DNA from: Crateriforma spongiae
GTDB taxonomy: Bacteria > Planctomycetota > Planctomycetia > Pirellulales > Pirellulaceae
Assembly: GCF_012290005.1 (NCBI RefSeq)
Contig: NZ_JAAXMS010000003.1
Span: forward strand, 62,001 to 126,000
Reading direction: 5' to 3'
DNA: 64,000 bases
The notes under the pieces were generated by a model. That model did not search any database and was not told the DNA's origin. It saw only the letters and a list, made by a program, of their open reading frames with translations. Numbering within the stretch: position 1 is the stretch's first letter; each line of letters opens with the position of its first letter. Made by a program: the position numbers and the translations under genes. Shown piece after piece: positions 26,201 to 43,243 of this stretch.

Positions 26201-26486
26201 TGCGGTGGACAAAGCGGTACGAATGGAAATTAGCGATTGCGACCACGGAATGATGTTCCAACCCGATGCCGAACATGCCATCCAGTTGGCGATCCGCGAT
26301 AGCGTTTTCGATCGTTGTGGGACCGTGGCGATCTACGCCAGTCGTGACGTTACCCTGACGGTCGCAGACACCGAATTTCGATCCATTCCGGGCCCACGTC
26401 AGTTCTATGCAATCAATGGGGCCCAAATCAACGACGCCGAAGTCATCAAAGCCCGACGTAACGAAACCCCGATCGACCAACCGTGA
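23232..26486 (+). CDS. Membrane Ser/Thr protein kinase with external beta-helix domain
   Basis: The 1084-residue protein has four parts. Residues 1-170 are acidic, rich in Asp, Ser and Glu, and probably disordered. Residues 175-440 form a Hanks-type kinase with GRGAFGVVY (glycine loop 183-191), VAIK (Lys205), HRDLKPDN (295-302), DFG (315-317), GTPPYMSPEQ and SDIWALGVIYYELL, so all catalytic residues are present. A membrane segment follows at about 508-531, preceded by KRR. Residues 595-1075 are rich in repeated 22-27-residue units, as in right-handed parallel beta-helices of the pectate-lyase fold (for example GRLAMSGNSFEDCSRGVW, ILDSRLTNCIAAGLTL). It may sense or bind an external polysaccharide or surface. 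The start is uncertain: TTG 23232, GTG 23259 or ATG 23445; conserved sequence begins only near 170. Confidence 0.85.
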   Translation: MHSQAVRQAVSNNDRDDSSDRRSDSASSDESVVGRPIDSDRSGQWESHDDHDHDSEDAASLDTIDAQTSDSMLDSGSASGSEILKPSGAVADETPSPDDLPTIAPPPDQVPNDSSEDGLWATELSEADLPIGDTDRGSSGTAPTIDIPAEFTASMADGFESSSVGHRTLPKSIGKFHVVRELGRGAFGVVYLARDEALDRKVAIKLSLVEDVAYQKRLLVEASNVAKVEGDHIVPVLHVDRTEFGAVYIVQKYIDGCTLGDWVRRHDRPSPGQVMILMYHLGLGLMTAHRQDMLHRDLKPDNILLDVNGVPWIVDFGLAISEQEQVGRRRELAGTPPYMSPEQIRGRVDFMDARSDIWALGVIYYELLSGGLPFAGRTRDQLADQICQRDPKPLHQRDPDRLTEDMDALFRRCCAKEPSQRFASVDELSSALLDLIRQHAKPEDFERPLGLDSVRATVTPFDRGSPSARTGLSTLRDSLVSQRGVMTDQRTLVGGTLERAPDRKRRLTGIAAVSVGIATLIIAAIFHQPILALLRSPEPSTLVPDSGPSTAVAGGFASDRVDLDIGDPVPLPEDASDPPVDSLLVPHDADAGPRRVAVDGLANHRRIQEAIDAAADGETIQIAAGYYRESLRLQRSIRLEAAPDAQSRPVVIGDGASPVIVDGQATVTLTGLEIAARDLYENASGIPLPSRFNTIEVLQGTLGLKDCDISKASFGDDDNYNSVKVHPAASLALLACRFGSSPGFSVSAKDASSVQISDCAFTASGVQLVASPAVVSGCRFTGDIGIQVHEPTDRPVRLDACRFNAARQFAVNVTAGGRLAMSGNSFEDCSRGVWMVRHDRDSLIGDPDDDVMMLPPVVQITGDVFTRCDTAIDMSGGQLKVAGDSQIKGGGTAVLIQAGNVGMDSVQIRESQLAGIHIAKDAGQIELRNVEVDAGRDTGIWIEACESCKILDSRLTNCIAAGLTLTGGRVELDGLTVINSAVGVQALQTAAVDKAVRMEISDCDHGMMFQPDAEHAIQLAIRDSVFDRCGTVAIYASRDVTLTVADTEFRSIPGPRQFYAINGAQINDAEVIKARRNETPIDQP

Positions 26487-26525: not shown

Positions 26526-27260
26526 TTAGGATCGACGACGACGGCGTCGTGCTCGCCATGCACTGACACTTGCCAATCCACCCAACAGTGCGATCGACCC
26601 GGGTTCTGGAACCGCACTGGCTGAGACGTAGCGAATGGAATCAATTCCAAAGTACCCGGAAGCACCGGTCGCAACAGGCGTCAGGATTTCAATCGACTCG
26701 AACACGGTATCTGAGTCTGTCACTCCGAAGAAATACTTAAATCCGTTTCCCGATCCTGTCGGATTCACCTGCTCGTTGGAAAATGCCCCATCAGTGAAGT
26801 TAAAGGTCTCGCCATTCACTCGGACTTGTACGTCGTCCGGGAACAAAAGCATCTCTGGTGAAAGGAACTGTAGGCTGAATGCCGAAAAACCGCCTGGTCG
26901 TGATATTGCGAAGCTGACTCCTTCGCCGATCAATTCTTCGGTGTCGTTACCTAGGTAGCCAGGTGCCGTTACCGGATCGTATCCAAACTGACTGGTGGGG
27001 CTATAGACAACACGCAACTCGTCCGCTGCGAGTCCCATCTGATAGGTGAACTGAAGGCCGTCAAATATTTCACCATCGCTGATCGTTTCGTCGGCCAAAA
27101 CAGAATCAAAATCAACGACACTGACGGTGGATCCCGCCACTTCCGTATTGAACGCACCCTCGTCCAAAAAACGGGTGGGCACAGCGTCTGCTGTTTGGCA
27201 AAACGTCAGCGAAACGACAAGCAAGCCTAGGACAGCGCGCAGCAAGGTTTGAATTCGCAT
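26526..27260 (-). CDS. PEP-CTERM-sorted secreted protein
   Basis: The 244-residue precursor has a signal peptide (MRIQTLLRAVLGLLVVSLTF...DAV) and ends with the PEP-CTERM signal VPEPGSIALLGGLASVSAW followed by RARRRRRRS. These signals are cleaved by an exosortase that sends proteins to the outer surface, usually with exopolysaccharide. The mature part is Asp/Glu/Phe/Gly-rich with a beta-rich look and two short segments like a lectin-type domain (FDGLQFTYQMG, GGFSAFSLQFLSPE). ATG 27260 is chosen over a TTG nine bases upstream. No exosortase gene is in the window. Confidence 0.8.
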   Translation of the reverse strand: MRIQTLLRAVLGLLVVSLTFCQTADAVPTRFLDEGAFNTEVAGSTVSVVDFDSVLADETISDGEIFDGLQFTYQMGLAADELRVVYSPTSQFGYDPVTAPGYLGNDTEELIGEGVSFAISRPGGFSAFSLQFLSPEMLLFPDDVQVRVNGETFNFTDGAFSNEQVNPTGSGNGFKYFFGVTDSDTVFESIEILTPVATGASGYFGIDSIRYVSASAVPEPGSIALLGGLASVSAWRARRRRRRS

Positions 27261-27456
27261 GAGAATCAAGAAGAGGAGAAGCTGTGGGGAAAGGAGATCG
27301 TCGACAGGTGAACTGAAGACGACCCTTCAATTTAGTCCAAACCCATGGGGCTGCCATGAGTTTTCGTCTGCCCTTCTGCCGGGTGGTGTTTGGCTTCTCG
27401 GCCGGGGCGGTTGGAATTCGGCAAGCGTCCTGGCCAGTGACTGATGCCGGTCACGG

Positions 27457-28290
27457 TTACGGAACGGCGGGGGCGGACGGCGGTGCTGTGGGCGACTCGA
27501 CGACCACCGGTTCCGACAGAACGCCTGCTGGCAACCACTCGACCTCTTGAGGTGTCAAAACGACCGACCCGGCGTCCTCCTCATCGCGCGGGCCCTCGTT
27601 TGAAGCCGACAACGAGTTCCAGCCATCGGAATCGTTCGGGTTTCCGCGATCCAGCAACGGATTGAAGTCCAAGGCCAGTTGATCGTGGACCCACCGAAGC
27701 CAATCGGGGCGGTATTCGATCATGGCAAGTTGTTGCAGTTGGGCGTGAACCAGTTCACCGCGGTCACCCATTCGAACCTTGCTGCGGACCAGATTTCCCA
27801 GGTACTTCGGCTCGTCTGGCGACAGTTGTGCCGCTGCGGCGTAGAACTCGATGGCTTCCCCCGCGCGCCCGCCGGCCTCCAACGCCATGCCCAGGTTGTT
27901 CAGCGGGGTGGGATCTTCCGGGCGCAACATCACCGCCGTGTCAAACGCGGATGCGGCCCTGGCCAATCGGTGTTGTTCAAAATAGACCAGCCCCAAATTG
28001 TTGTGCGCCCTGCCGTGGGTCGGGTCCAATTCAACCGCATGGATGAAGTCCCGCTCGGCCAAATCCAATTTGCCATGGCGGTAGTGTTTCACACCGGATT
28101 TGAACGCCGCATGTGCTTTGGTATTGGTCACCGGTGAAGCGTCGGCCGAAACGACATCAAAAGAGTTTTCCGGTCGCAGCCAACTACATCCGCCGCAGGC
28201 CAGCGTCACGATCACCCACAGGAACCACCGGGAAACCCAACGGGATGCTGCCTCAAGCGTGCCGACTTGCCGTCGATGACTTTCCGCCAC
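27457..28290 (-). CDS. TPR lipoprotein downstream of the type II secretion operon
   Basis: The 277-residue product has a hydrophobic segment ending in TLACGGC (lipobox, Cys near residue 35). Three TPR units follow (about 55-155), with typical spacing: AAFKSGVKHYRHGKLDLAERD, AHNNLGLVYFEQHRLARAASA and PLNNLGMALEAGGRAGEAIEF. The last 60 residues are acidic and rich in Ser and Pro. It is on the same strand as the GspM-like gene and lies 142 bases downstream of it. By analogy to PilF/pilotin-type TPR lipoproteins it may help assemble the secretin or pseudopilus. The start is uncertain; GTG 28290 is used, while ATG 28371 would add 27 residues. Confidence 0.65.
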   Translation of the reverse strand: MAESHRRQVGTLEAASRWVSRWFLWVIVTLACGGCSWLRPENSFDVVSADASPVTNTKAHAAFKSGVKHYRHGKLDLAERDFIHAVELDPTHGRAHNNLGLVYFEQHRLARAASAFDTAVMLRPEDPTPLNNLGMALEAGGRAGEAIEFYAAAAQLSPDEPKYLGNLVRSKVRMGDRGELVHAQLQQLAMIEYRPDWLRWVHDQLALDFNPLLDRGNPNDSDGWNSLSASNEGPRDEEDAGSVVLTPQEVEWLPAGVLSEPVVVESPTAPPSAPAVP

Positions 28291-28432
28291 CGGAACGTCG
28301 TCACCGCCCTCGCCGCCGACGTCGTTCACGCCAATCCATCGATCATCGTTGGTGGCGGTGTACCAGCACATCGGTGGACGAATCGGTCCAGGCTATCGGT
28401 CTCGCGGAAGCACCCGGAATGGGTGGACAACA

Positions 28433-28975
28433 TCACGAGTCGCTTATGGGAGAAAAGATCAATTGGGTCAAGGTCAGCTGGGCGTCCCAGACCTCCTGGT
28501 TTCTCTGGTTTGCGGTGGCGGGGGTCAGATTTAACTGGGGTACCGCCATTCCCTGTTCCGGATCGGGCAAAGCCAGCGCGAAAACCGCCAGCTGCCGCAA
28601 CGTCACACCACGCAGTTCAATCAGCGTGGTTCGAGTCGCGTAGTCCGACCGCGGCACACGACTGGGAGCCTGCGGTTCGACGGACATCAGTTGTGTCGGA
28701 GCCGTGGAAGACTGTTCCAGCGCGGCTTCAATTCGAACGGCCAGGTGGCTGGGAGATTCCGCCTGCAGTGCCGCAACCTTCGGCCGCCGCGAGGCGGCTC
28801 GAATGTCGCCCGCCCACTTGGAAACGTCGGCTGCATCACTTCGCAACTGCGTCAGTTCCGCCTTGGTGCTTCGATACCGGACAACGCCCAAAACGATCGC
28901 AATGAATGTCAATCCACAGACCATGACCCAAACGATCGTTAGGACGTTTTGCGCGGGTTCCTTTGACTGACTCAT
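28433..28975 (-). CDS. GspM-like type II secretion protein
   Basis: The 180-residue product has a short N-tail, one membrane anchor (about 10-32, VLTIVWVMVCGLTFIAIVLG), a helical linker and a small C-terminal alpha/beta domain (about 95-170). This is the layout of GspM/PilO-like inner-membrane proteins. Its ATG overlaps the stop of the upstream GspL-like gene as ATGA (28975-28972), which indicates translational coupling. Sequence-level recognition is weak; the position in the locus and the topology support the call. Confidence 0.6.
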   Translation of the reverse strand: MSQSKEPAQNVLTIVWVMVCGLTFIAIVLGVVRYRSTKAELTQLRSDAADVSKWAGDIRAASRRPKVAALQAESPSHLAVRIEAALEQSSTAPTQLMSVEPQAPSRVPRSDYATRTTLIELRGVTLRQLAVFALALPDPEQGMAVPQLNLTPATANQRNQEVWDAQLTLTQLIFSPISDS

Positions 28976-30306
28976 GGTGCAAAGCTGCCTTCGAACCGAG
29001 TCCGGACTTGTTGCCGCGTGATCCGTGCGCTTGATGGTGGCTGGATCTGAAAACCCTCGCTCGCCCAAGCGTCGGCAATCACGGTGGCATCGGCATAGTC
29101 GTCCAATCGCAAGTCGGCGACGAATTCAGATTCACGGATGCGGAGCGATTCGATGGCAAAGGAAAAACCATCGGGCATCGATTCCAATAGACGCATCAGG
29201 ATTGGCAAGGCGCTGGTCGGGATTTCCACCTGTGACACGTCTGCCCGCTGGCCCAGAGCACGACGCTGTTCGCTACGCATCCGTTTGACAAGGGCCTCTG
29301 GAACTTTCTGCCCGGGAAAGGTCCGCTTGAACTCCTGTCGCATTGCTTGATAGGCCGCGTCCGATTGCTGTTGAAGTTGCGAAGTCTTGAACCAAACCGA
29401 GGCGGCGATCAACGCCAAGGCAATGGATGTCGATAACGCAAAACAACGCAAAGGAAAACGCACATTGCGCAGCCGATCGTGACGGGCCAAGACGCCCCTG
29501 CGTAAATCAAACCAGGGGCGATGCGACCGCGATTGAAGCATCGCATCACGCAAGGCTCCAGATTCATCGAATGGCAACTGAGTCGCACCGGCAATAGCCG
29601 GCAACGACGCTGTGTCTTCCGGTGCACGAAGTTGGACCACGGGCAACGTAGAATCATCCTCCGCTAGAGTGTCGGGGAGCGATTCAATCCTTGGGTGGTC
29701 GCCGGACGGCAGTAGACGCCACTGAACCGGGCGTCCCGATTTCAGTGTGAACAATTCCCCCGTCAGACCGCCAGATAGTGACGGCGACGGCATGATCAGA
29801 TGACACGACTTGGGAACGGGGCAACACGCGATGATCTGTTGCAACACCAGCATGGAATCGGAGGTGACGGTGATGACCCGGATTCCGTTTTGTTCCAGCA
29901 GATCCACCAACGGTTCAGCCCGCGACGTATCGATCGCGACCAGCGTCCGATGTGTTGCCGTCGTGTATTGCGCGACTTCGATCTGTTCGGCATCGATCGG
30001 CAAGATGTCTTCACAAGAAAACTTCAGCTGTTCATAGGATGAACCTGCGTCGGTGGCTAGCATGTCCGCCGTCAGCATGTAACAGTCCATCGATCCGATC
30101 GTCACCGCGGCAGACTCCGATCGACCCTCGGTCCGCTGGGCAATCCATTGGCGAATCGTTTGGCCATCTTGATTGCGCAGTTCATCCGGCCACGGCGCAT
30201 CGGTGATTGCCGTCGCGAGATCGTTTTCTTCCGCGGCGAACCAACGCGTTGAACCCTCTTGGGTGACCACTTCAAGGGCCTGGTCCAGTAATCGAACAAG
30301 CATCAT
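28972..30306 (-). CDS. GspL-like type II secretion protein (PilM/PilN-like)
   Basis: The 444-residue product has a cytoplasmic actin-like part (about 1-265, with AAVTIGSMDCYMLTADML, TLVAIDTSRAEPLVDLL and HLIMPSPSLSGGLTGELF), one membrane segment (about 300-316, LSTSIALALIAASVWF) and a periplasmic ferredoxin-like domain. This is the expected layout of GspL, which links the GspE ATPase to the pseudopilus. The gene starts at ATG 30306, after a TTG fifteen bases upstream in the same frame. Downstream it overlaps the GspM-like gene by ATGA. Confidence 0.6.
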   Translation of the reverse strand: MMLVRLLDQALEVVTQEGSTRWFAAEENDLATAITDAPWPDELRNQDGQTIRQWIAQRTEGRSESAAVTIGSMDCYMLTADMLATDAGSSYEQLKFSCEDILPIDAEQIEVAQYTTATHRTLVAIDTSRAEPLVDLLEQNGIRVITVTSDSMLVLQQIIACCPVPKSCHLIMPSPSLSGGLTGELFTLKSGRPVQWRLLPSGDHPRIESLPDTLAEDDSTLPVVQLRAPEDTASLPAIAGATQLPFDESGALRDAMLQSRSHRPWFDLRRGVLARHDRLRNVRFPLRCFALSTSIALALIAASVWFKTSQLQQQSDAAYQAMRQEFKRTFPGQKVPEALVKRMRSEQRRALGQRADVSQVEIPTSALPILMRLLESMPDGFSFAIESLRIRESEFVADLRLDDYADATVIADAWASEGFQIQPPSSARITRQQVRTRFEGSFAP

Positions 30307-30339
30307 CTGTCTGCGATCCAAGATGTTTTGATCCGACGA

Positions 30340-31080
30340 TTATTGACCATTCAGCCAGTCCAGTTCGTCTTCCAATGACATGTCGTTCAAATCGCCCGGT
30401 TGAATCGGATCGTCGAGCGGTGGTGATACAGGTGCGGTGTTTGGCGAATCCGATGTGGCGTTGGAATTGCGAAGCGGCTTTGGTGGCGACGTTGGGGACG
30501 CGAGTGGTGATGACTTCGGTGGGATCTGAACCGGTGAACCAACGGGGGTTTCAATCCATTGGTCTTGGGATTGCATTTGAACCCTGCGCGAATCGATGGA
30601 ACGAACGACCATGGCCGGGGTTACAGATGGGATCGTCTCGCCGGTGCGCAGGAACAATAGCCCATCCTTTTCCGACATGAAGATGGCAACATCGTGTCCG
30701 CTTTCGACGGCAGTGCCCAACAGACGCAGCCCCAAGATGCGAGGTGCAGGCCGTACGATTTGTGCCGCGGGAGGTGTCGCAGGACGTTTCGGGGCCGGGT
30801 CTTGTGGTTTCGGTGCGGTCACCGTTTCGTAAGGTTTTCCTTGAAACCGGCGACTCCACAGCGTCTGGAAAGGTTCCAAGTCGATCGGCGGCGTCTGGAT
30901 CTGCGTTCGTATTTCCTGTCTCAGTTGTCGCGATTGGGTACCACTGGCCATCGCTTGGACGTCCGATCGCGACCACGCGACTGCGATGATCGAAATCGCA
31001 ACCCAAAACGCGGTTCCCATCCAAAGCCATCGTTTCGTCCGGTCATCGGTGGTCGACATTTTCGCAGAACCAATCGGCAT
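30340..31080 (-). CDS. GspC-like inner-membrane type II secretion protein
   Basis: The 246-residue product has a short cytoplasmic tail, one membrane segment (about 20-37, WMGTAFWVAISIIAVAW), a Pro-rich linker and a domain resembling the GspC homology region (about 112-175, PRILGLRLLGTAVESGHDVAIFMSEKDGLLFLRTGETI with its V.GtA.......AIi...g. pattern). The C-terminus is a Ser/Pro-rich tail ending in an acidic stretch, not a PDZ domain. GspC couples the secretin GspD to the inner platform. It sits after the GspK-like gene, not before gspD as in the common order, so the role rests on topology and the HR-like domain. ATG 31080 starts 8 bases beyond the GspK-like stop. Confidence 0.6.
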   Translation of the reverse strand: MPIGSAKMSTTDDRTKRWLWMGTAFWVAISIIAVAWSRSDVQAMASGTQSRQLRQEIRTQIQTPPIDLEPFQTLWSRRFQGKPYETVTAPKPQDPAPKRPATPPAAQIVRPAPRILGLRLLGTAVESGHDVAIFMSEKDGLLFLRTGETIPSVTPAMVVRSIDSRRVQMQSQDQWIETPVGSPVQIPPKSSPLASPTSPPKPLRNSNATSDSPNTAPVSPPLDDPIQPGDLNDMSLEDELDWLNGQ

Positions 31081-31087
31081 CACGAGT

Positions 31088-32083
31088 TTATGGATAAACG
31101 AATCGTCGCGTTTGGTAGATGCCCGCATCATCGATCCGGCGAACGGCCAGTGATTGGCGACGACGTGATGGCCCGCTGGCTTCGATCCAAAGTGAAGTCG
31201 CTTGGCTGGCGTCGGCTAGACGTTGCCGAAGCGTCTGCCGATGTTGCTGATTTGTAATGGTTTGATTCAACACCAGTTCGACTTGGCGAAGGGAGGTGTC
31301 GGAAATCCGCTCCGCCAGACGTCTTGCCAGTCCATCTTGCACCACATCGCGGCACACGGCAACGATGGCTGCTTCATTCGCCGACCAGACGTTCAGGCGA
31401 CCGCTGCCGAAGATCGTCAAGTTTCGGCTCAGTTCCGCCAAGACACGTAGACTGCCCTGCTGTTGAACGATCTGCGATTGATCAAAGACTTGCCCCCATG
31501 ATCGGAATGCCGGGGGCATGTTGGCAAAGTCCACGGTGGGGACGGTCGGGCTGTTGTCGCCAAAGCCGTTGATGCGTGACTCTTCGCGTTGCGAATCCTT
31601 CGCAGTGCGATCGGCCAGGCTTCGACGTTCGGGGGTTAAGGTCAGCCATCGGTATTGCATCGGCTGAACCATGTCTTGAACCAGGCGTTGGCATGCACGT
31701 TCGCCGGCAAAATCGTAAACCGCGTTCAGGTTGGCTTTCGCGTCCTCGTCGGATAGCAATAGATCAAACCTTTGGCCGCCCAGAACGATTCGGTCGGCCA
31801 CGATGGCATGTTGTGATTTGTCAGCAAACATGGGGCCTGCGTCGACGTCGTCACGTGCGATGTTCGTGGCGAACAATCCTGCGGAGGCGGGTAGGATGGC
31901 CTTTTCTAAGCTTTGTTGCCCCCAGGATTGTTGGACATCCTCGTTCAGACGAATGGTCATGCGTTGGAACATTGCCGTCTGATTGGCCGTCTGTACCAGT
32001 ATCACGCTGCTGGTGATCAACGCGACCAGCACGATCAACAGGACAAAGGCAGGGCGGCGATCGCGACTTTGGTGTGACTTCAT
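31088..32083 (-). CDS. GspK-like minor pseudopilin
   Basis: The 331-residue product starts with a basic tail and the hydrophobic stretch RPAFVLLIVLVALITSSVILVQ, a type IV pilin-like N-terminus. The residue before the cleavage site is Ala rather than Gly and Glu at +5 is absent; GspK proteins usually lack this Glu. The segment DLLLSDEDAKANLNAV resembles the (D/E)...(F/A)NLN feature of GspK. The long globular part (about 50-331) supports GspK over the smaller pseudopilins. ATG 32083 is preceded by GAGGG 11 bases upstream; an ATG 18 bases further upstream is also possible and would overlap gspJ-like by 14 bases. Confidence 0.65.
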   Translation of the reverse strand: MKSHQSRDRRPAFVLLIVLVALITSSVILVQTANQTAMFQRMTIRLNEDVQQSWGQQSLEKAILPASAGLFATNIARDDVDAGPMFADKSQHAIVADRIVLGGQRFDLLLSDEDAKANLNAVYDFAGERACQRLVQDMVQPMQYRWLTLTPERRSLADRTAKDSQREESRINGFGDNSPTVPTVDFANMPPAFRSWGQVFDQSQIVQQQGSLRVLAELSRNLTIFGSGRLNVWSANEAAIVAVCRDVVQDGLARRLAERISDTSLRQVELVLNQTITNQQHRQTLRQRLADASQATSLWIEASGPSRRRQSLAVRRIDDAGIYQTRRFVYP

Positions 32084-32087
32084 TGGA

Positions 32088-32708
32088 CTAAAGACCCTCA
32101 TGGTGTCGTATCACCAATGCGATCTGTTCCATTCCCCGTGAATCGGTCAAGCGAATTCGAATCACCGGTGGCATAACATCAGATCGCAGGTCGTCTTGCC
32201 ACAGATCATGCGTTACGTCCAGTCGGCCGACGTCGTCGGAAATCGGCTCGACTTGATAGTTCACCATTCGACCGGTCAACGGGTCGGTTTGCCACTGATG
32301 CCTCAGCAGCCATCGATTGAAGCGATCGTTGGTACGTGTATTTTGTCCTTGTGAAATGGGGACGACCTGATAGCGGACCGTGGCCGATCGACCCGTGGGC
32401 GTTCCAATGGATGTGTCACGGTGGATCAGTCCTGACAGCTGGATACCGTCATTCCACCACTGGATACGATCAGCGTGGATAAAGTCACGCCGCATTTGAT
32501 CGCCAATCAGCCGTGGGTTGATCGATGTTCGAAGGTCGTCGCGGATGTCATTGGAGGCGGTGATGATCTGGCGGCCGGCAACCAAAACGCACCCCGATGC
32601 GATCACCGATAGCACCACAGCCACGATCAGTTCCATCAAGGTGAATCCGGGATGGACCTTGCCCATCGCCAAGGTAGGACGCCGCGGTCGAACGTTCGAC
32701 TGATTCAT
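32088..32708 (-). CDS. GspJ-like minor pseudopilin
   Basis: The 206-residue pre-pseudopilin has the leader MNQSNVRPRRPTLAMGKVHPG ahead of FTLMELIVAVVLSVI, so cleavage after Gly and Glu at +5 (here E) fit prepilin peptidase processing. The C-terminal part is rich in beta-strand-like stretches and contains ADRIQWWNDG, ATVRYQVVPI and IRIRLTDSRG, in keeping with GspJ-type minor pseudopilins. Its start overlaps the preceding gene by ATGA (32708-32705). The assignment to J rather than I or H is by size and order. Confidence 0.65.
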   Translation of the reverse strand: MNQSNVRPRRPTLAMGKVHPGFTLMELIVAVVLSVIASGCVLVAGRQIITASNDIRDDLRTSINPRLIGDQMRRDFIHADRIQWWNDGIQLSGLIHRDTSIGTPTGRSATVRYQVVPISQGQNTRTNDRFNRWLLRHQWQTDPLTGRMVNYQVEPISDDVGRLDVTHDLWQDDLRSDVMPPVIRIRLTDSRGMEQIALVIRHHEGL

Positions 32709-33133
32709 GGCTGGTACGTCCTCGGCGCGGTGCGGCGATTGTCTCGGCGAACGTATTCGATCGATGTCAACGGTTTGTAGGTTCCATTGGTGCGAAACTG
32801 GACAATCTCCAAACGCATCACGTCGCACCAGACACCACAAATTGGGCGGCGATCCAATTGACGTGTCTGGTATCGCATTGTGTCGTGTCCCATTATCGGG
32901 CCGGCGACCACACCAGGTAAGCCTGTCGGCAAGTCGACCCATTGTGACATGAGTTGGTCGGCGATCTTGATTGCTTCTTTGCGGTCTCGGACCTCGGTGG
33001 CGGCAACACGGAATCGGCTGATGGCCAGCAGCACGGAAACGATGATGGTGGAAAACAACGTGATCCCGACGACGACCTCGATCAGCGTGAAGCCTTGCAA
33101 AAGGCGGCGAGGTTTTGATGTCGCAAACGTCAT
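32705..33133 (-). CDS. GspI-like minor pseudopilin
   Basis: The 142-residue pre-pseudopilin begins MTFATSKPRRLLQG with the cleavage site G/FTLIEVVVGITLF. This is the canonical processing signal with Glu at +5. The remaining globular part (about 90 residues) contains RLEIVQFRTNG and SIEYVRRDN. Both ends overlap neighbours by ATGA, so it is translated as part of the pseudopilin group. GspI identity is by order (H, I, J, K); all pseudopilins of this type share only the N-terminus. Confidence 0.65.
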   Translation of the reverse strand: MTFATSKPRRLLQGFTLIEVVVGITLFSTIIVSVLLAISRFRVAATEVRDRKEAIKIADQLMSQWVDLPTGLPGVVAGPIMGHDTMRYQTRQLDRRPICGVWCDVMRLEIVQFRTNGTYKPLTSIEYVRRDNRRTAPRTYQP

Positions 33134-33663
33134 CGTTGAAATCGCTCCGTCGGCACCGCATCCAAGGTGTGACCAGATCGCAAGGTCGAAAGTACGGCTT
33201 CCAATTGGGATTGTGATCGCAGGTGACGAACCTGGCCGCTTAACCCCATGACCAGAACCCATTCGGTTACATCACCGCACCGAAGTTCCATCAGATGCGT
33301 GCGGCTTTGGCCGTTGGCGAAGTACGGCACGCGGTTGTCGCTGGGACGCATTTCCGCTGCTTCCAATACTTGCCAACGCTCCAATTGCAGGCCCGGCGGA
33401 ATGGTAAGATGTCGGTCGGCTGCGATGAACGTCAGGTCGCGATTAGAACCCACGATTATTCCGCCTGAACGATTCTGTTTCGCGGCTTCATGGCGTTCGA
33501 TCTGTTCGGTCAGCAGAAAACTTTCAATCCATCGCTCGGTAGTGGCTTTGCGAATCAGCCCGCGCGTTGAACCGATGGCGATCCCCGCGACCAGGCCTAC
33601 CAAGATCAGGACGACGACCAATTCGATCAGGGTGAACCCACGGTGGTCTTTCAAGATTTTCAT
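33130..33663 (-). CDS. GspH-like minor pseudopilin
   Basis: The 177-residue pre-pseudopilin has the leader MKILKDHRG and the cleavage site G/FTLIELVVVLILVGLVAG. The mature part resembles GspH (RCGDVTEWVLVMGLSGQVRHL near the C-terminus is a beta-rich end). I chose ATG 33663 because it gives a typical short basic leader; ATG 33684 would add seven residues and overlap gspG. The stop overlaps the next gene start by ATGA. Confidence 0.65.
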   Translation of the reverse strand: MKILKDHRGFTLIELVVVLILVGLVAGIAIGSTRGLIRKATTERWIESFLLTEQIERHEAAKQNRSGGIIVGSNRDLTFIAADRHLTIPPGLQLERWQVLEAAEMRPSDNRVPYFANGQSRTHLMELRCGDVTEWVLVMGLSGQVRHLRSQSQLEAVLSTLRSGHTLDAVPTERFQR

Positions 33664-33673
33664 TCGAGGCAAT

Positions 33674-34108
33674 TCAAGACACATCAAGGTTATCGCTGCT
33701 GATGTCTTGGTCGCCGCCGTCGCCGCCTTCACGTCCGTCACCGCCCAATGACAAGATTTCAAAAGGGGATTCGTCGGCCGGGCTGATGTATTCGTAATCG
33801 CGTCCCCAAGGATCCTGGGGGATCGTTTTCAAGAAGCCGTCTGGGAAACTGTCCGTTCCCAGCGACAGAATCTCAATTCCTTCTTCGCTTGTCGGATATC
33901 GTCCCTGGTCGGCGTAAAACGTCTCCAGTGCGCTTACGATCGTGGCGATTTCGGCTTTCGCAGCGTTTTGCTTGCTGGCGATCAAATAGCTGCGGGTTTG
34001 GATTGCGACCAAGCTGCTAAGCAATCCGATGATGACCATCACGACGATCAATTCGACCAAGGAAAAACCGGTCTTTGTACGTAGGCGATGGTGATGAAGT
34101 GACGACAT
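33674..34108 (-). CDS. gspG: Major pseudopilin GspG
   Basis: The 144-residue product starts MSSLHHHRLRTKTG followed by FSLVELIVVMVIIGLLSSLVA, the prepilin cleavage site with Glu at +5. The segment ETFYADQGRYPTSEEGIEIL...GFLKTIPQDPWGRDYEY is diagnostic for GspG: the calcium-site loop and the PWGxxY motif. The C-terminus is Gly/Asp-rich (GGDGREGGDGGDQD). GspG polymerises into the pseudopilus that drives secretion. Gene length and motifs agree well with the family. Confidence 0.92.
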   Translation of the reverse strand: MSSLHHHRLRTKTGFSLVELIVVMVIIGLLSSLVAIQTRSYLIASKQNAAKAEIATIVSALETFYADQGRYPTSEEGIEILSLGTDSFPDGFLKTIPQDPWGRDYEYISPADESPFEILSLGGDGREGGDGGDQDISSDNLDVS

Positions 34109-34196
34109 GACGGGGGATGCGATTCAGATTTTAGAAAAGGAAAGTCAGGTCAGGTTTGGCGTGCGTGCTCGTTTGACCGATGGCGAAGTATGGATT

Positions 34197-35402
34197 TCAG
34201 GTGACCTGTCCAGCCTGCAAGATGGGTAGCATCGTGGCGACTAAAAGAAACCCGACCAGAACAGCCATGAACAAAATCAGCGCGGGTTCCAACATGGTGG
34301 TCAGGCGAGACGTGGCGCGTTGCACCTGTTGATTATAGTCGTCCGCTAAACGGATCAGCATCTGATCCAGTTCACCGCTTTCCTGGCCGACCGCGAAGAC
34401 GCGGATCGCCAAGGGAGGAAACAAGCCTTGATCCTGTAGGGCGGTGGCAACGTTTCCACCGGCCGACAGATCGTCGACGCATTTTGCCAGTGTTCGACGC
34501 AGCGATGTGTTTCGGGTGGATCGTGAAGCCAGTTGCATGCTTTCACGCAGCGGGATGCCGCTGCGCAGCAGCATTCCCAACACCATGGCGATTCTTGCGA
34601 CGTTTTGTTTGATCAGAATCGGACCGATCACCGGCAGTTTCAAGACCTTGCGATCTATCCAGGTTTTGCCCCGTTCGGTCGATACCATCCAAACGCCGAT
34701 CACCAACAACGCACCTGAGACGACCAGCAGCATGAGGCCATTGTTTACAAGAAACGTGCTAATGGATTGAGCGATTCGAGTGGGCCAAGGAATCTGCGTC
34801 AGCGTTTCTTGCAAGTTTTCAAGAAGTGGTGGCAGCACCCAAGTCATCAAGAAGATCATCGCCGCGACCCCGAAGGTCAACAAAAACATCGGGTACATCA
34901 AAGCGGTCGCAACCTTGTCACCGAACTCGGCCATGCGTTGCTTCAGCTGCGCAAGTTCGTCAAGCACGGCGTCCAAGTTTCCCGCGTTTTCGCCCACCTC
35001 GGCAAGACGCACGGATGCGGCGTCAAAGACATGGGGCTGCATGGCCATCGATTCCGCCAACGAACGGCCGGCCGTCACGTCATCGTGTATCCGGCGAAGA
35101 GCGATCCGAAGGCCACCACGATACTGGTCGGCCAAGGTGTCCACCGCTTCGTCGACGCCCATGCCGGTTCTTAACAGCATGGACAGTTCGTGGGCAGCCA
35201 CCGCCCATTGGGCCCGTGCACGATGTTGTCGGAGGTATTGCAGCCATGACCGCTGGGCAGATTCGTCAATCGGCCGGATGGCTGTGACGGTAACGCCTTG
35301 TTGTCGAAGCGAATCACGTCCGGCCCGCGCCGATTCCGCGTGAATGCTGCCGCGCAATCGTTTGCCGTCGGTCCCCGTGCCTTGATAACCGAACACGGGC
35401 AT
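34197..35402 (-). CDS. gspF: Type II secretion inner-membrane protein GspF
   Basis: The 401-residue product has two GspF/PilC domains and three membrane segments (about 165-195, 215-240 and 375-395). Family landmarks are MPVFGYQGTGTDGKRLRGSIHAESARAGRDSLRQQGV at the N-terminus, LLRTGMGVDEAVDTLA in domain 1 and LLRSGIPLRESMQLASRSTRN in domain 2, ending in the TMLEPALILFMAVLVGFLLVAT segment. It anchors the pseudopilus assembly platform. Its ATG shares one base with the gspE stop (TAATG), so the two are translationally coupled. Confidence 0.93.
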   Translation of the reverse strand: MPVFGYQGTGTDGKRLRGSIHAESARAGRDSLRQQGVTVTAIRPIDESAQRSWLQYLRQHRARAQWAVAAHELSMLLRTGMGVDEAVDTLADQYRGGLRIALRRIHDDVTAGRSLAESMAMQPHVFDAASVRLAEVGENAGNLDAVLDELAQLKQRMAEFGDKVATALMYPMFLLTFGVAAMIFLMTWVLPPLLENLQETLTQIPWPTRIAQSISTFLVNNGLMLLVVSGALLVIGVWMVSTERGKTWIDRKVLKLPVIGPILIKQNVARIAMVLGMLLRSGIPLRESMQLASRSTRNTSLRRTLAKCVDDLSAGGNVATALQDQGLFPPLAIRVFAVGQESGELDQMLIRLADDYNQQVQRATSRLTTMLEPALILFMAVLVGFLLVATMLPILQAGQVT

Positions 35403-36973
35403 TACGTCACCACATTCCCATCGGCATTCGGTTGATTGACAACCGTCACGCGGGCAACTTCCTGGGCCGTGGTCAAGCCTTGAGCGATTTTGTGTTGTCC
35501 GTCATCGCTAAGCAGTTGCATTCCTGCCGCCTGTGCGGAATCGCGGATCGTGCGGGCGCCGCTGCGTTCTTGGATGTGCCGTCGAATGGTTTCATCGACG
35601 ACCAACAGTTCGAAAATGCCGATTCGACCGCTGTATCCAGTCTGGCGACATTGGGGACAGCCAGCTGCCGTGGCCCGTTCTGGTTCATCACCCGGCATCG
35701 TCGTGCCCACGGGTGTTTTACATTGGGGGCACAATGTGCGAACCAAACGTTGCGCCAGTGATCCGACAAGGGAACTGGCCAACAAGTAAGGTTGGACGCC
35801 AAGATCCAGCATCCGGGTGATCGCGCTGGCCGCATCGTTGGTGTGCAGCGTGCTGAAAACCAAATGGCCTGTCAGCGATGCCTGGATAGCCATGGTCGCG
35901 GTTTCCTGGTCGCGAATTTCTCCTACCATGATCACGTCGGGATCCTGACGCAGCAGACTTCGCAGTCCCGAGGCGAACGTCATCCCCTTCTTTTCATTGA
36001 TCTGTGTTTGGCTGATTCCGGGAAGTTGATATTCGATCGGATCTTCGAGTGTCAGAATGTTGGTTTCCGATGAATTTAGCGTTTGAAGCGCGCCATACAG
36101 GGTCGTGCTCTTGCCGCTTCCCGTTGGTCCGGTCACCAGGATCAATCCATGATCCACGGAGATAAGTTGTTGCCATTGCTGCAGCATAGCCGGTGGCATG
36201 CCAAGTTCACCCAGCGTGTAACGACGCACGCTTTTGTCCAGCAGTCGAATGACAATGCGTTCGCTGTGGCTGGTCGGCAGTGATGCGATTCGCAAGTCGA
36301 CATTGCGATCACCAAGGGTTACCGTTGCGCGTCCATCTTGAGGCAGTCGTTTTTCTGCGATGTTCATCCGACCCAGGACTTTGATCCGGCTGATCACTTC
36401 TTCCTGGATTGATTTTGGCACTTCCACCACATCGAACATCACGCCGTCGATGCGTTGTCGAATTTGTAGGCGGTCGTCCCGGGGCTGGACGTGCAGATCC
36501 GACGCGCCCGCGACGACGGCATCGAACAGCAATTGATTGACCAACTGGATAACCGGAGGCCGACGGTCGCTGTCCAACAAGTCTTCGGGGCGGATGCTGG
36601 TGCCGATGGTCGGTTCGCCGACGCGTTGGGTATCGATTGAATGCAGCAAGTGCCGGGCGTCGCGATCGCGTTGCGCGTACACTTGATCGATCTTGGCCGT
36701 GACAACTCCAGCGTCGCAACGAATCGGTTGCACCGGAGTTCGCAGACGACGAGCAACGATGTCGCACTGCGGCAAGGATCGTTGGTCGCCGATCGCCAAT
36801 AGCAATCCGGTAGATGTCTCTGCCGAACCCGACGTGGTGGGGCGAATGCCAATGATCTTGTGACGTCGGGCGTGTTGGATCGGAATGCGATCCAAGAATA
36901 CCGGGTCGCCGTCGAAACGATCGAGCGAATCTTCGAAGCTCAGTTGGTCGAAAGGCAACACCGACAAAAACAC
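35402..36973 (-). CDS. gspE: Type II secretion ATPase GspE
   Basis: The 523-residue hexameric ATPase powers pseudopilus assembly at the inner membrane. Walker A is GPTGSGKST (282-290), the Asp box is LTLEDPIEYQ (308-317), Walker B is VIMVGEIRDQETA (347-359) and the His box follows at GHLVFSTLHTND. A zinc-binding tetracysteine lies at CPQC (415-418) and CPQC (439-442). The start is GTG 36973; the two nearby ATG codons are in another frame and open a mini-ORF that ends after 18 codons, so the true start is not certain. The first 130 residues are poorly conserved. Confidence 0.92.
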   Translation of the reverse strand: MFLSVLPFDQLSFEDSLDRFDGDPVFLDRIPIQHARRHKIIGIRPTTSGSAETSTGLLLAIGDQRSLPQCDIVARRLRTPVQPIRCDAGVVTAKIDQVYAQRDRDARHLLHSIDTQRVGEPTIGTSIRPEDLLDSDRRPPVIQLVNQLLFDAVVAGASDLHVQPRDDRLQIRQRIDGVMFDVVEVPKSIQEEVISRIKVLGRMNIAEKRLPQDGRATVTLGDRNVDLRIASLPTSHSERIVIRLLDKSVRRYTLGELGMPPAMLQQWQQLISVDHGLILVTGPTGSGKSTTLYGALQTLNSSETNILTLEDPIEYQLPGISQTQINEKKGMTFASGLRSLLRQDPDVIMVGEIRDQETATMAIQASLTGHLVFSTLHTNDAASAITRMLDLGVQPYLLASSLVGSLAQRLVRTLCPQCKTPVGTTMPGDEPERATAAGCPQCRQTGYSGRIGIFELLVVDETIRRHIQERSGARTIRDSAQAAGMQLLSDDGQHKIAQGLTTAQEVARVTVVNQPNADGNVVT

Positions 36974-37028
36974 CGGTTCATGAATCGTTGGGTCATTGCG
37001 GCCGGAAGCGATGGATAAAGTCCGCCGT

Positions 37029-39566
37029 TTATGGAATCAGTTCAGGCCGGCTGGATGGATAGTCACCGGGCAAACACTGTTCGCTGAGTTCATTTTGCGA
37101 CAGATACTTCAGGTCCGCAAACCGCGAATCTCGCAACACGATGGGGCGAATGAATAGAAAGAAGGACGTGGTCGAATATCCGTCGTCGGTTCGACTGGTC
37201 AATTCCCGGATAACCGGAATCTTTTCGGCCCATGGAATCCCGGCAAAGTTGTGGTCTTCGCTGGTTCGTTTCAGTCCCCCCACCACCACGGTTTTGCCGC
37301 TGGGGATGGTGACGATACTTCCGACGCGATCGATCTGGCGTGGGGGGGGAAGCCCGTCGGCCCCCTGTCCGGAAAAGGTGCTGAATTCGACATCGAATTC
37401 AAGCTGCAAATGATCGTCTTCGTTGATGTGCGGTGTGACGGTGATGATCGTCCCGGCGGTCTGGTCGCCTCCCAAGCTGGTCGTCGCAACCGTGTCCGAT
37501 GCGTTGACACTGGCAAAGGGGACGCTGACCACGCTTTCCAGCGTACCGGTGCTGTTGTCATTGACCAGAATTTTGGGGGCCGCCAAGACGCGTGATCGTT
37601 CGTGCTGCGCAAGTGCACGCACAACGACATCGGCGACCTCGGGGTCGATCAACGTTCCATTGAATCCCAGCCCCGGAATGATACGCAGGGCTCCGGTGTC
37701 CGGATTGACTTCGCTAAGGCCAAAAGAGCTGAACTTGAACAAACGCTTGATCCCTTCGCGGTCTCCGACGGACACTTCCACCCCCAAGGTGTAGTCATCT
37801 GACGTGCTGACAGCGATGACTTTCGCTTCGATCAAAACCTGGGGACGTCGTTGGTCCAACGATTCGATCAGCTTGGCGTACATCGGTTGGACGCCGGCCG
37901 GCGCGAAGACGATCAGGCTGTTGGTTGATACATCGGCCGATACTCTGGCGCCACCCGGCAGCGTGGCCACGCCGCCGCCGGCCAAATAGCCGCCAGCGGC
38001 TTCGACGCCCGACGCGAATCCGCGCGCCAAACCGTTGGCCTGCGGACCTGCGGCAAGCGTCGGTTGTGCCAACGGATTGTTGGTGGTGGGGGATTCTTGG
38101 TCGAACCGAGACCCACTGGCCGGCGGCAGCGGCAGCGAAGTCATCGGGACGGTCTGTCCCGTTGCAGTCGCAAGGGGCGAAACCAAATTCGGTCCGGCCA
38201 ATCCCATTGGCGTCAGGGCGTTCAACGCGGTCGGTGCAATTCCGCCAAACGGCCCAAAGCCGGAAGCGGTTGCATAGGGTCCCGCACCGACCGCCTCTTG
38301 CAACGCCAACAGGGAGTAAAGGACATCGATCGCGCTTGCGTTCTTCAGCTTGTAAAATTGAATCGGGCTGCCATCGCTTTCGACCGCTTGGTCCAACTGT
38401 TCGATCAAATCGGCAATTTGGCGATGGACATCACTGCTGGCTCGCACGATCAGCAGATTGCCTTCTTCATCCACCGTTGATTGATAGGCCGATTCGCTAT
38501 CGTTCGGCGGTTCGATGAAGCCACCAATCAGTTTGTCGATTCGCTGCGCCGAAGTATTGCGGATTCGATAGACCGATGTTGTCACTCCCAAGGCGACGTC
38601 CAGACGCTTCAACAGCGATTCGGCCTTCTGAACCACGGCGGTGGAGCCCGCGACGATGATGCGATTGCCCAGCGGCTGTGGGATGATTTGGATCTGTCGC
38701 GTATCAATGTCGTTGTCGCCCGACGTCTTCAGCAATCCGATGACCTGTTCGCTCAATCGATCCGATGATTGATGTTTGGCTTCGTATAACAGGAATCCGG
38801 CCGAACCCGCCGGCTTGTCGATCAGGGTGATCAGATCTGACAAGGTTTCGATGGCCGCGGCATAGTCGGTCACGATCAGCGTGTTTGAACCCGGAACGGC
38901 CGAAAGGTTGGCCGACGTGCCGCTGAGAAAGGGTTGCAGAACCTGAGTGACCGATTCGGCGCTCAGGTTTTCAAGCACGAACACTTGGGTGATCGGAGTG
39001 GCCGGATTGGTTGGCGACACGACCCGTGGTGATGCATCGGTCGGGGCCGACTGCATGGGGGGATTGATCGAAATGGGATCGGTGATCGAAGTGGCTGGAC
39101 CTCGGATCCCCGGTTGAACTTGCGAAACCGACGTCATCTGGTCGGCGGGAATGATACGCTTCCATCCGGTTCTTGGGTCTTCAATCAGGACCAATTGTTC
39201 GGTCCGCAATACATTGCCCAGCAGAATCGGCAGTGAACTGACCGGCAAAGTGCCGGGGGATCGCACCGTCACCTTTCGGGCCGCGATGGCATCGTCGTAT
39301 TCGATACGCAAGTTCAGGCGACCGGCGATGTAACCGATCAACGCGTCAAGCGGGACAGTACCGTCCAGGTTCAATTCAACATCGGGGCCGGGGGTGTCCA
39401 CGACCACGGGCCGCGGCAGTTCCTGTTCCTGGCCCAGCAATGTCGAACCACAGAAACCGATCCAAAGCAGGATCGTTGCGGCCACAAGAACCAGCGCCGG
39501 CTTTCGTCGGTGCGCCCCGTGAAAACCGTCAGCGACTTGTCGTTGGGTTGTGGCTGGGAAGGTCAC
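37029..39566 (-). CDS. gspD: Type II secretion secretin GspD
   Basis: The 845-residue outer-membrane channel has a basic N-terminus and hydrophobic stretch (about 22-45). N-domains follow (first about 60-135, then repeated STN/N-type units around 190-255, 265-330 and 360-430), then a long Gly/Pro/Ser-rich stretch (about 440-560) and the secretin domain (about 570-800). Signatures are VPGSNTLIVTDYAAAIETL, RVLAAPKILVNDNSTGTL and RVGSIVTIPSGKTVVVGGLKR. I see no lipobox. It starts with GTG at 39566 and gspE follows 55 bases later. It is the first gene of the T2SS block. Confidence 0.93.
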   Translation of the reverse strand: MTFPATTQRQVADGFHGAHRRKPALVLVAATILLWIGFCGSTLLGQEQELPRPVVVDTPGPDVELNLDGTVPLDALIGYIAGRLNLRIEYDDAIAARKVTVRSPGTLPVSSLPILLGNVLRTEQLVLIEDPRTGWKRIIPADQMTSVSQVQPGIRGPATSITDPISINPPMQSAPTDASPRVVSPTNPATPITQVFVLENLSAESVTQVLQPFLSGTSANLSAVPGSNTLIVTDYAAAIETLSDLITLIDKPAGSAGFLLYEAKHQSSDRLSEQVIGLLKTSGDNDIDTRQIQIIPQPLGNRIIVAGSTAVVQKAESLLKRLDVALGVTTSVYRIRNTSAQRIDKLIGGFIEPPNDSESAYQSTVDEEGNLLIVRASSDVHRQIADLIEQLDQAVESDGSPIQFYKLKNASAIDVLYSLLALQEAVGAGPYATASGFGPFGGIAPTALNALTPMGLAGPNLVSPLATATGQTVPMTSLPLPPASGSRFDQESPTTNNPLAQPTLAAGPQANGLARGFASGVEAAGGYLAGGGVATLPGGARVSADVSTNSLIVFAPAGVQPMYAKLIESLDQRRPQVLIEAKVIAVSTSDDYTLGVEVSVGDREGIKRLFKFSSFGLSEVNPDTGALRIIPGLGFNGTLIDPEVADVVVRALAQHERSRVLAAPKILVNDNSTGTLESVVSVPFASVNASDTVATTSLGGDQTAGTIITVTPHINEDDHLQLEFDVEFSTFSGQGADGLPPPRQIDRVGSIVTIPSGKTVVVGGLKRTSEDHNFAGIPWAEKIPVIRELTSRTDDGYSTTSFFLFIRPIVLRDSRFADLKYLSQNELSEQCLPGDYPSSRPELIP

Positions 39567-39703: not shown

Positions 39704-41176
39704 TCAGGCCAAGAACCCGATCGGAGCCGATGATCCGCCGCTGGCGTAGAAATTTCGGATGTTGGGCAGGACGTCTTGAAGCGTTTGGTTATTAGGGATG
39801 CCGAACCACATTGCCAGTTCCGCGTTGTACTCATCCACCGATGTCGTCGGAATCAAACGCCCGCGACCGACATCCAAGTCATTGTTCAGCGCCAGCGATT
39901 CGGGATAGTCACCGTAGGTATTGCCGCCCCGGACCGCACCCCCGATCACGAAATGGTTGCCGCCCCACGCGTGATCACTGCCGTTGCCGTTGGAGGACAG
40001 CGTTCGGGCAAAGTCTGATGCGGTGAAAGTGGTCACGCAATCAGCGACCCCCAATTCTTCGGTTGCTCGATAGAACGCATGCAACGCTTGGCTGACTTGC
40101 GGCAGCATGGCGGCTTGATTGTCTATCACTTCGTCGTGGTGATCCCAGCCACCAGCGGACACAAAAAAGATCTGCCTTCCTTGCCCCAGCGTCTGCCGAC
40201 CGGCGATGGTCTTCGCCACCATCTCCAAGTTTTCGGCAAGACGATTTTCGGCGGGAAAGGTCGTGTTCAAGGTAACGTCGGTTGCCGAATTGAATGCATC
40301 GGCGGCGTCGATACTGACACGCTTCGTTTTTGCCAAAGTTCGCTGCAGCAGATCGCTGTAGATTTGCCCAAGTTCGCTGTCGGCCGTGGACGGATACATG
40401 TGATCGATGACACGCCGGTAGACGCGATCGCGTGCGTTGTTGTTCCCATACCCGTACAACGGTGTGGCACCATTGGTGTTGACCACGTAGGGAACGATTT
40501 GTCCGCCGGTTTGAAACACGTTCAGCGAACCCAACGCGATGTTCATCGCGATGTTGGGATTGTCATTGGTGGTGGCGTTCAAAATGTCCGCCATGCGTCC
40601 ACCCCATCCGGTGACTTGTGAACGTGATTGGGGAACGGACGTTTGCCAATGCTTGATCAGGTCGCTGTGAGAAAACAAACCCAACGGCAATTTGACGGTC
40701 GAATAGTTGGACTTGTCGGTGGGGAACACCAAGCTGCCGACGTTGGCGACCACGGCCGCATTGCCCTCGTTGTACAGCGTCTGCATTTCCGGCATTCCGG
40801 GGTGAATGCCCAGTGTGCGTCCGCCGGGTGACGACGAATCCATGGGGATCGAAAGCAGGTCTTCCCGCGGCAATGCGAGGTTGGTGCGGATACCGGCATA
40901 GGCGTCGTATTCGCTTTGCACGTGCGGTGTGATCATGTTGTAGCTGTCGACACCACCCAACAAAAACACACACACCAAGGCTTTGTAATCGGACCCGCCG
41001 GTCGTATCCGCCGCGACCGACTGTGTCAGCTGCAGATTCAGGATCTGGGACAGGATTGCCGTTGATGAGAGTGACGCACAACCGCCCGACCATTTCAAAA
41101 AATTGCGGCGTGACAATGGATCCAGCTGAGGAGAATTCATACCGGACAAGGTGGCTTCGCGGCTTTGGCGTTTCAT
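39704..41176 (-). CDS. DUF1501 protein with Tat signal
   Basis: The 490-residue protein has a twin-arginine signal, SRRNFLKWSGG (about 23-33), and the DUF1501 body: LVCVFLLGGVDSYNMITPH, SLVFPTDKSNY, FFVSAGGWDHHDE and VTTFTASDFARTLSSNGNGSDHAWGGNHFVIG. Related proteins resemble alkaline-phosphatase-like sulfatases in fold and occur with DUF1800 partners across planctomycetes; the activity is not known to me. It lies 74 bases downstream of the DUF1800 gene on the same strand and 138 bases upstream of gspD. ATG 41176 was chosen; 41140 is also possible. Confidence 0.85.
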   Translation of the reverse strand: MKRQSREATLSGMNSPQLDPLSRRNFLKWSGGCASLSSTAILSQILNLQLTQSVAADTTGGSDYKALVCVFLLGGVDSYNMITPHVQSEYDAYAGIRTNLALPREDLLSIPMDSSSPGGRTLGIHPGMPEMQTLYNEGNAAVVANVGSLVFPTDKSNYSTVKLPLGLFSHSDLIKHWQTSVPQSRSQVTGWGGRMADILNATTNDNPNIAMNIALGSLNVFQTGGQIVPYVVNTNGATPLYGYGNNNARDRVYRRVIDHMYPSTADSELGQIYSDLLQRTLAKTKRVSIDAADAFNSATDVTLNTTFPAENRLAENLEMVAKTIAGRQTLGQGRQIFFVSAGGWDHHDEVIDNQAAMLPQVSQALHAFYRATEELGVADCVTTFTASDFARTLSSNGNGSDHAWGGNHFVIGGAVRGGNTYGDYPESLALNNDLDVGRGRLIPTTSVDEYNAELAMWFGIPNNQTLQDVLPNIRNFYASGGSSAPIGFLA

Positions 41177-41249
41177 GGCGGGCAAACTGAAAAGAAGAAG
41201 ACGAGAAGAACGGCAAGGGCGGTAAGCCGCGTGGTTTGACGGGGATGAC

Positions 41250-43049: not shown

Positions 43050-43243
43050 GCGTCTCTCCGGTAAAGCAGACAAGGAGTAGATCAGTGGAAAAGTGGACTG
43101 CCCGTCGTCCAGAGCCCATTGCCCCGCATCTAGCGGAGCTGCGCCGAAGTGAAAACAGCGGCGGCATGCCAAAAGTACCCAGCTAATAAGGTTGGTGAGT
43201 CGGCCCTTGGGCGGTTTCACCGTAGCTGTGGGCTATTTTGTCG

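Follow-up and report, generated by a model that had tools for sequence, protein, structure and literature searches.

A planctomycete type II secretion operon with a candidate TPR pilotin and proposed DUF1501 and DUF1800 clients

The type II secretion system (T2SS) of Escherichia coli K-12 is encoded by a single compact gsp operon in the order C-D-E-F-G-H-I-J-K-L-M-O, with its own prepilin peptidase, and in Xps-type systems the order is E to N followed by D. Beyond the Proteobacteria T2SS are poorly charted. The accessible part of PMC4793230 reports very few predicted systems outside that group and names Planctomycetes for the type I secretion system only, and the word Planctomycetes is absent from the main text of PMC6668835. 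Planctomycete T2SS genes have already been reported, GspDEFGIK being named for metagenome-assembled genomes (MAGs) of anammox planctomycetes in PMC9530715, the accessible part of which gives no operon, gene order, C, L, M or tetratricopeptide repeat (TPR) gene. Here we describe an operon from Crateriforma spongiae (Pirellulaceae), carried on a 64,000-nucleotide stretch of DNA (contig NZ_JAAXMS010000003.1, positions 62,001 to 126,000; the window), in which 12 open reading frames (ORFs) on the minus strand, running from 39566 to 27457, are ordered gspD-E-F-G-H-I-J-K-C-L-M and followed by a TPR lipoprotein gene. Like E. coli gsp it is a single compact operon with C to M all present, but it places C between K and L, has no O and, unlike the canonical T2SS, has a C without a PDZ domain and a TPR lipoprotein gene at the operon end. 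A literature search, with most subscription journals outside its scope, gave no description of this operon or of a T2SS with a TPR pilotin.

A precedent for the lipoprotein comes from the Tad system, in which a secretin with a short C-terminal tail, RcpA, is paired with a TPR lipoprotein, TadD, and binds it through its final four residues (PMC10499894, accessible part); the same source reports that truncation of the PilQ tail did not prevent secretin formation. That pairing was demonstrated in a pilus system, whereas the pair in the window is a proposal for a T2SS drawn from sequence. We hold with high confidence that the operon encodes a T2SS-type machine, and with moderate confidence favour a fuller reading, a planctomycete-lineage T2SS with a dedicated TPR pilotin and with DUF1501 and DUF1800 proteins as proposed clients.

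Components of the operon and their order

The secretin gene gspD (37029-39566), the ATPase gene gspE (35402-36973), the platform protein gene gspF (34197-35402) and the major pseudopilin gene gspG (33674-34108), all like the rest of the operon on the minus strand, are clear by Pfam and NCBIfam. GspD carries four Secretin_N stretches and a Secretin domain, and GspE matches PF00437 at 1.8e-135. T2SS models outscore their type IV pilus (T4P) counterparts for D (TIGR02517, its best secretin model though below cut-off, 246 bits versus 120 for PilQ), for E (TIGR02533, 576 versus 475 for PilB) and for F (TIGR02120, 310.7 versus 231 for PilC), and GspG passes the cut-off of TIGR01710 (118 bits, cut-off 88.85). 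The minor pseudopilins are also accounted for. GspH (33130-33663, its start placed at the ATG ahead of the prepilin motif) and GspI (32705-33133) match TIGR01708 (1.5e-8) and TIGR01707 (4.5e-7) below cut-off, and an 11-sequence profile (A2) of GspK (31088-32101, start uncertain, ATG at 32101 or 32083) matches the GspK structure 3ci0 (E 5.3e-4). GspJ (32088-32708) has no gsp-named NCBIfam match near cut-off and is assigned by its place and its prepilin N-terminal motif only (TIGR02532 18.7 bits, cut-off 16.3; Pfam N_methyl 18.6, cut-off 21.2), and in related loci by position and profile; TIGR02532 is above cut-off in G, H and J. As an earlier note on this DNA had proposed, the 12 genes stand in the order given, and the overlaps it described are borne out, TAATG at E-F and ATGA at H-I, I-J and L-M; the J-K junction is not an ATGA overlap because J stops with TAG at 32090-32088.

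For the remaining machine genes the doubt was whether they belong to unrelated families. A 12-sequence profile (A1) of the C-like protein (30340-31131, start uncertain, 31131 or 31059) matches the solved GspC structures 2lnv, 6hcg, 7oio and 3oss (best E 3.9e-6) over the HR domain, which excludes a protein unrelated to GspC. The T2SS model of PMC6668835 requires GspC, and PMC4793230 forbids it for Tad and T4P, as far as the accessible parts of both go. GspL (28972-30321) matches TIGR01709 (8.7e-18, 64.6 bits) and GspL_C (0.0058), although among solved structures its profile lies closer to PilM (0.0018) than to GspL (0.049). The profile of GspM (28433-28975) gave no match against PDB sequences, yet its AlphaFold2 model (pLDDT 91.8) has a predicted fold of PilO/PulM type: its alignment with PilO gives Z 12.1 and an rmsd of 2.1 over 92 residues, that with PulM Z 9.1 and an rmsd of 2.3 over 78 residues. 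Profiles thus identify C, K and L as components of a T2SS, and the predicted fold does so for M. The alignments draw on clean starts only from 15 loci (A1 12 rows, A2 11, A3 12, A4 11, A5 and A6 15 each); A8 has 33 rows of the M list.

The genes, their order, their conservation and their co-occurrence are directly observed. In a first set of 15 loci, the window included, the run D-E-F-G-H-I-J-K-C-L-M-TPR is whole in 12, among them L072, whose M frame is overlong and spans L. Of the others, L028 and L076 read C-L-M-TPR-D-E or its end, and L069 is without G, its E and F separated by about 2 kb. A larger set of 80 loci (79 named loci and the window) shows the full D-to-TPR run in 26, with loci of short flanks retained in the denominators and L088 counted as full although the contig end cuts its TPR frame (39 bits). 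Both sets include the window and share several contigs, and the hidden Markov models (HMMs) for the later loci were built from the 15, some of which were recounted as the same contigs and so match by construction. Of the 52 loci with both C and D, 49 have C immediately ahead of L and two have it immediately ahead of D; in the remaining one it is placed otherwise. The two are a Brocadiaceae MAG (L158) and Planctomycetes SM23_32 (L159), so the phylum also contains a C-first order, unlike that of the window; in L158 no TPR label lies less than about 10 kb from D on either side, and the flanks of L159 are too short to show whether a TPR gene is present. Records with a window-type D include Rhodopirellula, Stieleria, Rubripirellula, Roseiconus (D, E and F seen) and Phycisphaeraceae; two labelled as other phyla, L136 (Binatia) and L145 (Mariprofundus), may be mis-binned. 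The altered order to which the earlier note had drawn attention is thus real, C lying between K and L, but it is no oddity: it is a lineage trait of this planctomycete clade, ordinary within its lineage and unusual against the textbook order.

The TPR lipoprotein and the GspD tail

The last gene of the operon (27457-28371, start uncertain) encodes a TPR lipoprotein whose mature form would begin at the Cys at 28188. With a score of more than 100 bits it occurs in 47/80 loci, adjoining M in 35, D in 12 and neither in three, with L105, L106 and L109, where it adjoins both, included in both counts; in five loci (L104, L105, L106, L109 and L160) it lies within about 13 bases of D. The lipobox Cys is invariant in all 38 aligned sequences, as are one Arg and two Trp downstream of it; this alignment (A7) comprises 38 of the 47, omitting L095, L098, L100, L109, L133, L141, L148, L149 and L151. 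The top NCBIfam model of the window protein is PilW (TIGR02521), matched by 15/15 members, and in the type IVa pilus PilF/PilW serves the secretin PilQ as pilotin. At 56.2 bits the match of the window protein to this model stays below the cut-off of 154. The predicted structure has nine helices forming four to five TPRs, and the best 50 rows of a structure search with it are generic TPR matches only; PilF and TadD are absent from these 50 rows, which does not exclude them.

The putative partner of this protein is the C-terminus of GspD, where 35 residues (37032-37136) form a conserved tail of fixed length that we propose, from sequence, as the pilotin-binding segment. F816, L819, S823, P837, S839 and P841 are invariant in 15/15 members. 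By pattern match the tail is 35-38 residues long in 41 of the 47 TPR-bearing loci; five of the other six, of Rhodopirellula type, extend past the tail motif, and L123 gave no tail. The other 33 loci, in which no TPR label exceeds 100 bits, have a tail of 35-36 residues in 14 cases and not in 19. The conserved tail was not seen in eight loci with no TPR gene labelled (L157-L159 and L161-L165), several of which have short flanks.

The conserved lipobox, the siting by D, the fixed GspD tail and the TadD-RcpA precedent together lead us to read the TPR lipoprotein as probably the pilotin of GspD, an assignment by analogy. Pfam scans of the 12 operon genes matched no known T2SS pilotin family, and the earlier note had concluded that the operon lacks a secretin assembly gene; this is probably wrong, the TPR lipoprotein being the best candidate.

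The DUF1800-DUF1501 pair, the GspC tail and other secretion genes

Two genes stand 5' of gspD on the same strand, ending 137 bases from its listed start, and may be part of the same operon. The first encodes a DUF1800 protein (41250-43220; PF08811, 2.2e-71) with a Sec-like signal peptide by eye. The second encodes a DUF1501 protein (39704-41260; PF07394, 4.7e-34), its start uncertain between the listed TTG at 41260 and an ATG near 41140 ahead of a twin-arginine-like signal (TAT_signal 9e-4, 19.5 bits, below the cut-off of 22.7). The next gene upstream (43244-45118) has Mur ligase domains and was excluded as a part of the system. The same pair occupies the same place in L087, L088, L089 and the distant relative L078, and its linkage to gspD is seen in 4/80 loci.

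The DUF1800 gene is the sole DUF1800 match in the genome of the window, and its type tracks the T2SS across the family. DUF1800 of any type occurs in 138/241 family genomes (42/45 with GspL, 96/196 without), and the window type (E<=1e-40) occurs in 38, namely 35/45 with GspL versus 3/196 without. Counted by genus, the window type is present in 8/12 with GspL versus 2/56 without (Fisher 2.7e-6, phylogeny ignored beyond genus), and in genomes lacking it the other DUF1800 types show no clear association with the T2SS (p 0.21). The three genomes with a window-type DUF1800 and without GspL also gave no GspD match, in a search run without a positive control. Because of the distribution of the window type with and without GspL we propose DUF1501 and DUF1800 as clients or partners of the T2SS, a proposal from sequence for and against which we judge the evidence evenly balanced. 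The pair has elsewhere been linked to bacterial chitin synthase genes (PMC5122149, accessible part).

The loci with the pair directly before gspD (the window, L087, L088 and L089) are also those with an acidic GspC peptide. In the window GspC consists of the HR domain followed by a Pro/Ser/acidic tail with SLEDELDWLNGQ at its end, which agrees with the earlier description of a C without PDZ. Similar peptides are terminal in L087 and L089 and internal in L088. No Pfam PDZ match was found in any of the 12 aligned GspC proteins, the window's included; Pfam T2SSC is matched in 6/12, and GspC of the window has no Pfam match.

Pseudopilin processing would require a prepilin peptidase, and the earlier note had found none in the operon. 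Pfam scans of the 12 operon genes agree, but PF01478 genes above cut-off lie elsewhere in the genome. One, on contig C4 at 88 kb, encodes 436 residues with both aspartate motifs, recognised by eye; the other, on C3 at 138 kb, is CpaA-like and sits beside a Tad-looking gene set. The genome has eight secretin and 14 T2SSE matches, and also a second T2SS-like operon, E-F-G-H-I-J-K-L-M-D, on C1 (G000:C1:388000-407999, L032). It is this operon that resembles the Xps type, that of the window starting with D and having C and the TPR gene. E and G of the C1 operon are above T2SS cut-offs (632.4 versus 630.25 and 126.8 versus 88.85), and D (338 versus 351), K and M are below; none of its ten scanned proteins is named GspC, no search having been aimed at GspC there. 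A full canonical T2SS elsewhere in the genome, which the earlier note would have counted against its own reading, is thus found in part. A 1742-residue ORF weakly similar to GspD precedes the C1 operon.

The C1 system is the commoner in the class, as its K is matched in 80/118 class genomes and the GspL of the window in 4/118 (both E<=1e-3), its own genome included, one of the other three matches being weak (4.8e-4, in a 1638-codon frame). None of the 14 same-family genomes listed within that class scan has GspL at this threshold, and a recent arrival foreign to the family was considered. It was rejected on the fuller scan, in which 45/241 family genomes have a GspL match (1e-8), a same-genus genome among them 91% identical; the T2SS is therefore patchy within the family. 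In a GspE tree made by a quick method and including one E. coli GspE, the window clade holds 61 rows (SH-aLRT 98).

Further genes lie near these loci. After the TPR gene of the window comes a PEP-CTERM protein (26526-27269; 19.8 bits, cut-off 20.7), and beyond it, on the opposite strand, a Ser/Thr kinase with a beta-helix part (23232-26486). In relatives, giant RHS/YD-repeat proteins adjoin the T2SS (L028:12860-19138, L131:22-7284, L150:829-7383, L154:4537-9846 and others) and may be T2SS cargo. Pfam RHS is matched in 4/7 of those tested, and a YD-type motif occurs at least four times in one ORF in 18/102 loci (some contigs twice), above shuffles in the nine tested. The C-terminus of the L154 protein is Tox-URI2, and that of L028 holds a phospholipase A2-like stretch just under cut-off. 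In the genome of the window the RHS matches, among those listed, all fall in one 10757-codon frame away from the T2SS (G000:C7:125728-128784). In two Phycisphaeraceae-type loci (L072:1-7367 and L077:1-7132) gspD is directly preceded by genes that look ExbB/ExbD/TonB-like by eye and by one for a TPR protein about 510 residues long, and L074 also has a 509-residue TPR protein. Near gspD, the loci L108, L111, L115, L128, L131, L136, L139, L140 and L144 encode proteins that resemble one another by eye, each about 270-300 residues long and with a hydrophobic N-terminal stretch; the three tested have no Pfam match above cut-off, and a DUF1573-like protein is also near gspD in some of the L108-L144 loci.

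Proposed assembly, its rivals and its meaning

Taken together these components suggest how the machine would work, and we infer from them the pilotin role, the client role and secretion itself. GspE would power the GspF-based building of a G-H-I-J-K pseudopilus, its pseudopilins processed by a prepilin peptidase encoded elsewhere in the genome. Standing on a C-L-M inner-membrane base, the pseudopilus would drive proteins from the periplasm out by the GspD channel. Anchored to the outer membrane, the TPR lipoprotein would take the C-terminal end of GspD into its groove, bring the secretin to that membrane and drive ring formation, in a manner like TadD/RcpA rather than GspS/AspS. DUF1501, with its Tat-like signal, and DUF1800, with its Sec-like signal, would enter the periplasm by two routes, as clients.

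Several observations weigh against this assembly. GspG alone passes its cut-off among gsp-named NCBIfam models, D, E, F, H and I falling below theirs (equivalog cut-offs for D, E and F) and GspL falling 0.4 bits short of 65. E. coli K-12 GspE groups with the other ATPases of the genome and not with the window clade, on a long branch that carries a warning of long-branch joining, so descent from a proteobacterial T2SS is not established. In one rival reading the operon encodes a T4P-like machine that builds a surface filament instead of secreting proteins. The M fold closest to PilO, the L profile nearer PilM and the failure of the window and E. coli GspE to group would fit such a machine, but the GspC HR domain, GspK and a GspG over cut-off are marks of a T2SS, D, E and F favour the T2SS models over their T4P counterparts, and the operon has a single ATPase gene; we consider the rival very improbable. 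A narrower doubt concerns the lipoprotein, which within a genuine T2SS could be an accessory scaffold or cargo adaptor, the secretin self-assembling or using another lipoprotein. TPR folds are general and TPR proteins match each other widely, the best 50 rows of the structure search are generic matches only, the equivalog cut-off of PilW is not reached, seven other TPR-type NCBIfam models also match 15/15 members, and the gene adjoins gspM in 35/47 loci. In seven Phycisphaerae-type loci, moreover, it is divergent from D across a gap of 70 to 2436 bases, one or two other genes intervening in 5/7, and the joint presence of tail and lipoprotein is weaker than it appears because both share ancestry and are not independent. 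We nevertheless think this role unlikely, given the invariant lipobox Cys, PilW as the best model, the siting by gspD in rearranged loci and the fixed length of the GspD tail.

It is harder to choose between a client role for DUF1800-DUF1501 and their being chance neighbours, or genes that one subclade inherited together with the T2SS but that have no functional tie to it, an explanation to which we give somewhat less than even weight. DUF1800 of any type is common, linkage to gspD is confined to a few loci, ten T2SS-bearing genomes are without the window type, and DUF1800 and T2SS lie <=15 kb apart in only 5/35 genomes (G000, G491, G589, G550 and G469), many assemblies being fragmented, and 32 kb apart in G651; the Fisher tests, too, leave shared descent above the genus uncorrected. 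What speaks for a tie is that the pair recurs at this position in the distant relative L078, and that the window type follows the T2SS genus by genus where other types do not clearly do so.

The broadest form of our proposal is tentative, and we lean towards doubting it as a whole: a class of planctomycete T2SS in which a Tad-like TPR pilotin acts on the GspD tail, with a subclade in which the machine and an acidic GspC tail, with a SLEDELDWLNG-like peptide at its end or within it and at the place of the PDZ domain in other GspC proteins, would serve a dedicated DUF1501-DUF1800 pair. If true, the T2SS and Tad modes of secretin installation would meet in a whole T2SS that has a TPR lipoprotein. 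DUF1501 and DUF1800, which have no known function as a pair, would likewise gain a role, in secreted or cell-surface processes, that can be tested, and a place as T2SS clients would be the first function for either.

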